Assembly (NCBI GenBank): GCA_937890045.1
Contig: CALBXV010000655.1
Span: 1 to 6,320 of the forward strand
Direction: 5' to 3'
Length of the DNA: 6,320 nucleotides
Source of the DNA: an uncultured archaeon
GTDB taxonomy: Archaea > Thermoproteota > Nitrososphaeria > Nitrososphaerales > CALBXV01
Below the pieces are notes generated by a model. It worked only from the letters and a program-made list of their open reading frames with translations, did no database searches and had not been told where the DNA came from. This document shows, one piece after another, positions 1 through 1,803 of this stretch. How positions within the stretch are numbered: position 1 is the stretch's first letter; every line of letters begins with the position of its first letter. A program made the position numbers and the translations under genes.

Positions 1-137
1 TCAATCTCTATGGGTTTAGTGATTACTTCTACTTGTTTTGTCGCACAACCACTAATTATCAGTAGTGGTAGGATCGTCAAGATTGTCAAGTGATTTACTA
101 TCTTCTTCAATCGTTTCAAATACTTTCTTTGTTCCAT
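1..137 (-). CDS. Putative outer-membrane spanin lipoprotein (o-spanin, Rz1-like), cut by the window edge
   Basis: This frame opens with ATG at 137-135 and stays open for 45 codons to the window edge, so the 3' end is missing. The product starts with a basic n-region (MEQRKYLKRLKK), then a hydrophobic stretch (LTILTILPLLII), then a lipobox ISGC with Cys31 encoded at 47-45. This is a textbook lipoprotein signal peptide. The residue after Cys is Ala, not Asp, which favours outer-membrane sorting. The mature part begins ATKQVEVITKPIEI, which I recall as typical of short lipoproteins in marine T4-like phages. A purine-rich AAGAGAG lies 6 nt before the ATG. The gene overlaps the 3' end of the membrane-anchored coiled-coil gene by 86 nt in the +1 frame, the arrangement of Rz/Rz1 pairs. 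Role by inference: it bridges to the inner-membrane partner and fuses the membranes during lysis. A TTG at 110-108 is a weaker alternative start. Confidence 0.78.
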   Translation of the reverse strand, partial: MEQRKYLKRLKKIVNHLTILTILPLLIISGCATKQVEVITKPIEI

Positions 138-438
138 CGTTTACTCTCTTTTCAATTAGACCTGGTTTAGCTATAGCTAACTTATTCATATTATGTCTTT
201 TGAATATGTCTAAATATCTATTCATTTCTCCCTCAATCTCAGCATTTCTAGCAGTCATATTATTCAAAGCAGATGACTGCTTCTCAAAACTTTCTTGTTG
301 AGCTTTAATTGTGGCTGTTTGTTCTTGATCTCTCACTTGAAAAGCAAGATTTTCAATTTTAAGTGATTCATTCTGTTGATATAAGAAATATCCACCCAAA
401 GCCATGGCCATTATAATACCTATAAATAACTGATTCAT
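52..438 (-). CDS. Putative inner-membrane spanin (i-spanin, Rz-like): N-terminal TM plus coiled coil
   Basis: The product is 128 residues. Residues about 4-20 form one hydrophobic segment (LFIGIIMAMALGGYFLY) with no lipobox, fitting a type II signal anchor. Residues about 22-75 are rich in E, Q, K and A and look like a coiled coil. The segment around 71-104 (EMNRYLDIFKRHN...AKPGLIEKRVNDGTK) is one I recognise from marine T4-like phages. The tail is acidic and low in complexity (EEDSKSLDNLDDP). That tail, residues 101-128, is the part overlapping the lipoprotein gene in the other frame. The start ATG shares ATGA with the stop of the upstream 74-residue gene (438-435), so translational coupling is likely; AAGAG lies about 12 nt upstream. 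The topology, length and overlapping lipoprotein partner match i-spanins, which span the periplasm in Gram-negative lysis. No holin or endolysin is in the window, so the role is inferred. Confidence 0.75.
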   Translation of the reverse strand: MNQLFIGIIMAMALGGYFLYQQNESLKIENLAFQVRDQEQTATIKAQQESFEKQSSALNNMTARNAEIEGEMNRYLDIFKRHNMNKLAIAKPGLIEKRVNDGTKKVFETIEEDSKSLDNLDDPTTTDN

Positions 439-1782: not shown

Positions 1783-1788
1783 AATAAC

Positions 1789-1796
1789 TATTTATG
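1789..1796 (-). promoter_or_regulatory. Possible T4-type late promoter octamer (CATAAATA)
   Basis: The minus strand reads CATAAATA in the 21-nt gap before the HNH-fusion gene. It is 7 of 8 with the T4 late consensus TATAAATA and fits the looser NATAAATA reported for cyanophages. T4 spacing would put the transcript start at about 1783, next to the ATG at 1782, giving a leaderless or nearly leaderless mRNA. About six NATAAATA matches are expected by chance in a window of this composition, so this is a weak call. Confidence 0.25.
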
Positions 1797-1803
1797 TAAA
1801 TAA

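Follow-up and report, generated by a model that had tools for sequence, protein, structure and literature searches.

A very likely overlapped spanin pair of the T4 PseT.3/PseT.2 families at a contig edge of a probable T4-like marine phage

Spanins are two proteins which many phages use to break the outer membrane of the host at the end of infection. In phage lambda they are an inner-membrane protein, Rz, and a lipoprotein, Rz1, encoded by genes which overlap in the +1 frame; Rz1 lies wholly inside Rz, and both proteins carry periplasmic cysteines (PMC6139136). In the part of that source used here, the lambda Rz/Rz1 pair is classed as embedded, the P2 and T5 spanins as overlapped, and the T4 genes PseT.3/PseT.2 as separated. 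The locus described here lies at one edge of a 6,320-nt stretch of contig CALBXV010000655.1 (the whole analysed stretch is referred to as the window), and its features are the following:

1..137, - strand: 5′ part of the putative o-spanin gene, 45 codons (open frame; identity with locus L001; lipobox frame in relatives)
45..56, - strand: lipobox ISGC, codons 28-31, with Cys31 at 47-45 and Ala as the +2 residue (from the sequence)
52..137, - strand: overlap of both putative spanin genes, 86 nt (from the sequence and the substitution pattern)
52..438, - strand: putative i-spanin gene, 128 aa (open reading frame; phrog_739; hydropathy; homologous loci)
138..151, - strand: probable ribosome-binding region, AAAGAGAGTAAACG, ahead of the o-spanin start codon (from the sequence; L001 has the same stretch)

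The 128-residue protein was compared with PHROG profiles and matched phrog_739 ('Rz-like spanin') at 7.2e-15 over residues 5-114. Hydropathy predicted a transmembrane segment at the N-terminus (best 19-residue span at residues 1-19, mean KD 1.59), and every 19-residue span from residue 26 onward had a mean KD of -0.13 or lower, which fits a periplasmic remainder. This predicted topology, an N-terminal transmembrane segment followed by a periplasmic part, is that of the inner component of a two-component spanin. The periplasmic part is without Cys, is coiled-coil-prone and carries the conserved KPGLIEKRVNDGT.

An earlier, sequence-only reading of the window had placed a second - strand frame inside the 3′ end of this gene, with a basic start, a hydrophobic core and the lipobox ISGC, and its coordinates were exact. 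The frame starts with ATG at 137-135 and is open up to base 3, giving the 45 residues MEQRKYLKRLKKIVNHLTILTILPLLIISGCATKQVEVITKPIEI, which make up a lipoprotein signal peptide and the first mature residues. Judged by motif and hydropathy, it combines basic first residues, a hydrophobic core whose best decamer averages KD 3.09, and the lipobox, that is, the lipoprotein signal of the outer component of a two-component spanin. It lies in the +1 frame relative to i-spanin and covers the last 86 nt of that gene, again as had been claimed, and the conserved i-spanin residues EKRVNDG double as a purine-rich stretch and the ATG of o-spanin. The stretch AAAGAGAGTAAACG upstream of this ATG is probably the ribosome-binding region. 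Codons 7 and 10 are TTG and are possible alternative starts; database relatives P0002-P0004 and P0007, protein entries whose start codons are unseen, start from the residue that corresponds to codon 10. A TTG start would give a shorter signal and the same reading. The frame was absent from the closed-ORF listing and present in the open-end listing, confirming that a simple ORF caller misses it.

The frame is cut in the window after 45 codons, its last two bases there being GA and the next codon in L001 being GAA; what is said of its C-terminal domain and stop derives from the relatives. Searched alone, the 45-residue piece gave weak matches to spanin profiles (phrog_456 at 0.006, phrog_812 at 0.059), and zero tblastn matches in phage records at E <= 10. 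The full-length o-spanin of L001 (L001:3302-3862, with stop) matched phrog_812 'Rz-like spanin' at 2.4e-13. Both proteins thus match the named lysis families of PHROGs, phrog_739 and phrog_812, the o-spanin strongly only via its full-length relative in L001, and the predicted family membership of the o-spanin rests on the full-length relatives.

The layout had been read as that of Rz/Rz1. An overlapping spanin pair is indeed what was found, but the layout is of the overlapped type, as in P2 and T5, and not embedded like that of lambda. A strict embedded layout was rejected, given that the o-spanin reaches far beyond the i-spanin, by at least 51 nt in the window and by 478 nt in L001. The comparison with lambda is one of layout and not of sequence homology. 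T4 PseT.3/PseT.2, on the other hand, belong to the same two families by profile, as tested on the PseT.3/PseT.2 pair of Dhakavirus IME341 (phrog_739/phrog_812). T4 PseT.3 and the i-spanin of the window are both without Cys, whereas the T4 genes are classed as separated and the pair in the window overlaps by 86 nt (PMC6139136, in the part used here). The Cys pair of PseT.2 lies at positions 87 and 98, whereas the closest relatives of the window have a two-Cys insert. The T4 family is described as having a beta-alpha-beta fold, which was not confirmed for the present pair. The AlphaFold2 model of the L001 o-spanin was too poor (mean pLDDT 51.8) to serve for fold searches. No relative was found among solved structures, the best E being 0.67 and 0.75. 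Neither spanin protein had a meaningful match in Pfam or NCBIfam, where the hits lay far below curated cut-offs and were treated as noise.

Two further phages carry comparable pairs. The annotated i-/o-spanin of Stenotrophomonas phage DLP4 show the same overlap order, the same two families and a related KPGLIQSRVNAGT motif, but differ in the overlap of 188 nt, an annotated endolysin adjoining, another host and an o-spanin of 124 aa. In Methylophilales phage Melnitz the pair gp34/gp35 (L102:4469-5204) belongs to the same families (gp34, phrog_739 at 5.3e-17; gp35, phrog_812 at 4.6e-15) and overlaps by 65 nt; the o-spanin gp35 has 135 aa and its sole Cys is that of the lipobox. By sequence, the pair in the window is a further member of the known overlapped spanins, within the T4 PseT.3/PseT.2 sequence families.

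It is very likely that the pair acts as an overlapped two-component spanin, with an anchored i-spanin and a lipidated o-spanin which bring about membrane fusion at lysis. Lipidation, sorting, complex formation and fusion are drawn by analogy with what is known for lambda, P2 and T4. The N-terminal helix of the i-spanin would anchor it in the inner membrane, and the o-spanin would be exported, cleaved before Cys31 and lipidated on it. With Ala and not Asp at +2, the o-spanin would be sent to the outer membrane under the +2 residue rule for lipoprotein sorting, which comes from E. coli; the 44 distinct o-spanins of the relatives (best 80 of 223 loci) have Ser in 41 cases and Ala in 3. The C-terminal parts of the two proteins would pair across the periplasm. 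Once the endolysin had cleared the peptidoglycan, the complex would change shape and fuse the inner and outer membranes, completing lysis.

The two proteins might instead form an envelope complex of other use, derived from or resembling spanins and serving, for example, superinfection exclusion or membrane-stress control. This is very improbable. Profile searches recognised no holin or endolysin gene adjacent to the pair or elsewhere in the window, a further small lipoprotein-like ORF lies near the pair in L002 and L004, and the Melnitz neighbourhood contains a 'putative S-layer protein' gene, all of which would suit such a complex. However, both genes match lysis families that include PseT.3/PseT.2, and the T4 pair complements lambda spanin defects and sits away from the T4 holin and endolysin (PMC6139136, in the part used here).

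The spanin reading was followed through the relatives. The i-spanin alone, used as query, gave 11 viral loci (L001-L011). An alignment of nine sequences, all of them i-spanins (A1), then brought in 80 loci, the best of 223. An ORF with a lipobox, starting from ATG and overlapping in the +1 frame, was present in 79 of these, and in the sole exception, L080, the contig ends inside the i-spanin. The two genes therefore co-occur in relatives, as the sequence-only reading had anticipated, and homologues without the lipobox frame, which it had named as counter-evidence, were not met among these loci, the truncated one aside. These 79 loci represent 47 distinct pairs (44 distinct o-spanins and 38 distinct i-spanins), and the overlap ranges from 47 to 155 nt, most commonly 83 nt (43 of 79). 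All seven loci L005-L011 have the overlapping lipobox frame too. In five loci on further contigs (L016, L017, L023-L025), an i-spanin-like ORF overlapping upstream was seen by eye in each. A search of 5.8 billion proteins returned 1707 o-spanin homologues at E <= 1e-3, none with a functional name among the 120 listed; most of those listed carry the precomputed label PF26831, which was absent from the Pfam scan of the L001 o-spanin.

It could also be that the o-spanin of the window's genome is broken beyond the edge, as seems to be the case for both spanin genes in the record deposited for Pelagibacter phage HTVC008M. At the syntenic place of that record (L105:8679-9416), phrog_739 matched at 1.5e-8 and 1.1e-6 and phrog_812 at 3.0e-7. 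In the HTVC008M searches 14 of 14 and 10 of 14 control genomes also matched at E <= 1, and only strong matches were used. There the matches to both families are spread across different frames, in frames other than those of the annotated gp145/gp146 or with an internal stop; both genes appear broken there, and a real break and a sequencing matter are alike possible. The annotated gp145 and gp146 look like front pieces of the spanins only. The closest locus found points the other way for the window: L001, whose i-spanin is 87% identical, shares 43 of the 45 visible o-spanin residues, and its own o-spanin frame is intact. An early stop beyond the edge was looked for in relatives only, and in L001-L004 the frame continues to a length of 187 aa. 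A broken o-spanin in the window's genome is, on this comparison, highly unlikely.

The frame was also examined by shuffling that preserved the 128-residue protein, its TAG stop and the next 51 nt, which include the Cys codon. A signal and lipobox from an ATG within the last 240 nt or just beyond were counted. When codons were redrawn from the codon usage of the window, the frame stayed open in 5,106 of 40,000 sequences and gave signal plus lipobox in 2,454 (6%); when codons were permuted within the i-spanin gene, the numbers were 3,229 of 20,000 and 1,863 (9%). No comparable lipobox frame was present at the 3′ ends of the eight other window genes examined. The lipobox frame in isolation is therefore suggestive, only mildly beyond chance, and because 6-9% of the shuffles also yield such a frame, the case for the o-spanin rests on the relatives.

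Selection on the two frames was estimated from substitutions at codon positions 1/2/3 of the i-spanin, whose first position is the third position of the o-spanin. Between the window and L001 there were 9/5/24 differences outside the overlap and 7/2/2 inside it (Fisher p = 0.015), and over 20 disjoint sequence pairs, window-L001 included, 120/53/337 outside versus 28/10/26 inside (p = 1e-4), the p-values being indicative only, given that pairs within one clade share history. The third-position excess of the i-spanin vanishes within the overlap, and the substitutions there, as judged from these alignments, track the lipoprotein frame. Downstream, over o-spanin codons 31-187 of L001-L004, dN was 0.025-0.052 and dS 0.25-0.38 in five of six pairs; the sixth pair, L003 and L004, is identical over these codons. 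That the lipobox frame is open merely by chance and the 128-residue protein alone is real is hardly credible, for despite the yield of the shuffles the frame is kept in 79 of the 80 relatives, the other being cut off, leads into a long conserved WFVV...DYELMS...ELRRY domain with dN well below dS, shapes the substitutions in the overlap and has its many homologous proteins, and for the o-spanin family the relatives refute it.

The gene order of the window is as in relatives, running from a phrog_407/DUF7207 gene through a phrog_18642 gene, an HNH-like gene and a 74-aa gene to the spanins. The larger neighbours are:

2374-2745: phrog_407/DUF7207 gene (profile match)
1804-2373: phrog_18642 gene (profile match)
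631-1782: HNH-like gene, 383 aa

Further downstream, primase and ribonucleotide reductase genes are present in L002 and, by eye, in L004. Melnitz matches in the broad neighbourhood, with phrog_407 and phrog_18642 genes upstream and primase and ribonucleotide reductase downstream, and HTVC008M also keeps the broad gene order (the phrog_407 gene aside); the records of both phages are filed under Kyanoviridae. Among named relatives of the window's phrog_18642 gene, HTVC008M ranks first (39.9%), and the contig of locus L049 carries a T4-type capsid gene 23 (E 2.9e-149), the only one of ten relative contigs to do so, some of which are possibly fragments. Because of the synteny with Melnitz and HTVC008M, the phrog_18642 relative and the gp23 contig, the source phage is probably a marine myophage of the T4-like kind, close to the pelagimyophages. 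The earlier description as marine T4-like thus has its support in these relatives, not in the window taken by itself. When the first 2 kb were compared with phage records by blastn, the sole match was one of 61 nt within the HNH-like gene.

The HNH-like gene varies in length: it has 383 aa in the window, 184 aa in L001 and 129 aa in both L002 and L004. An N-terminal HNH-like part and an EDMG(S/T)VTG.HIAGTGDD stretch are common to all, and the middle of the window's protein is extra. A peroxiredoxin-like gene lies between the phrog_18642 and HNH-like genes in L001 (L001:1769-2239), L002 and L004, its phrog_2281 match having been tested in L001 only; there is none at this place in the window (1783-1803).

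The cysteines of the pair were also compared. At least one periplasmic Cys in either spanin component was reported for 507 of 528, a feature that is common and not definitional (PMC6139136, in the part used here). Among the best 80 of 223 loci, with L041 left out for its incomplete o-spanin and the 47 distinct pairs thereby reduced to 46 complete ones, neither the i-spanin nor the mature o-spanin contains Cys in 28 pairs (e.g. L044 and L048), the o-spanin has two Cys within an insert in 17 (alignment A3), and two Cys lie in a deviating, shortened o-spanin tail in one, L100. Pairs free of periplasmic Cys are unusual compared with the reported near-universal periplasmic cysteines. In the window the i-spanin is without Cys and the o-spanin is visible for 45 codons only; L001 has Cys75 and Cys85 in its o-spanin, and Melnitz gp34 is without Cys. 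The insert with the Cys pair (NPC..C..GYTYLD) is of variable length and follows a WFVV stretch in the o-spanin of the window's closest relatives. The distant relatives checked (L010, L016, L023, L024 and Melnitz) lack both the insert and any extra Cys, which suggests that the insert was a later gain. We tentatively propose, with somewhat less than even confidence, that marine T4-like phages have a large spanin subfamily, many members of which are disulfide-free in the periplasm, and that one sub-branch, that of the window's closest relatives, later gained a Cys pair on an o-spanin insert. If so, covalent linkage of the spanin complex would be dispensable and gainable as a module, and cultured Melnitz-like phages would use standard spanins, not a curli pore, for the outer-membrane step. 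With the Cys-free pairs, the need for disulfides in spanin function could be put to a natural test.

For lysis of Melnitz, curli pores and a lysozyme-like gp67 were proposed (PMC9004378). In the part of that paper used here, the lysis model names no phage spanin, and 'spanin' appears a single time, where lambda is discussed; the paper was the only literature found that pairs Melnitz with spanin. A survey found that endolysin alone predominates in Kyanoviridae (PMC12596118, in the part used here). gp34 and gp35 are annotated hypothetical in the four Melnitz records, and these records and that of HTVC008M bear out the earlier remark that such genes are mostly annotated so. Under the present reading, these hypothetical genes of Melnitz, a cultured phage of the OM43 clade, and of HTVC008M would serve a step of lysis, and given the size of the o-spanin family the assignment would carry to many records.

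Other genes adjoin the spanin place in both phages. One, at L102:5205-5807 in Melnitz and L105:8058-8663 in HTVC008M, lies on opposite sides of it in the two genomes and has an N-terminal hydrophobic segment; in Melnitz its annotation is DUF1353 (phrog_1158, tail assembly chaperone), in HTVC008M tail assembly chaperone, and a lysis role for it is conceivable. The proteins encoded at L102:5813-6268 and L105:9417-9839, also beside the spanins, have a single C-terminal hydrophobic segment (VLEKWR...GG), and are possibly tail-anchored or holin-like.
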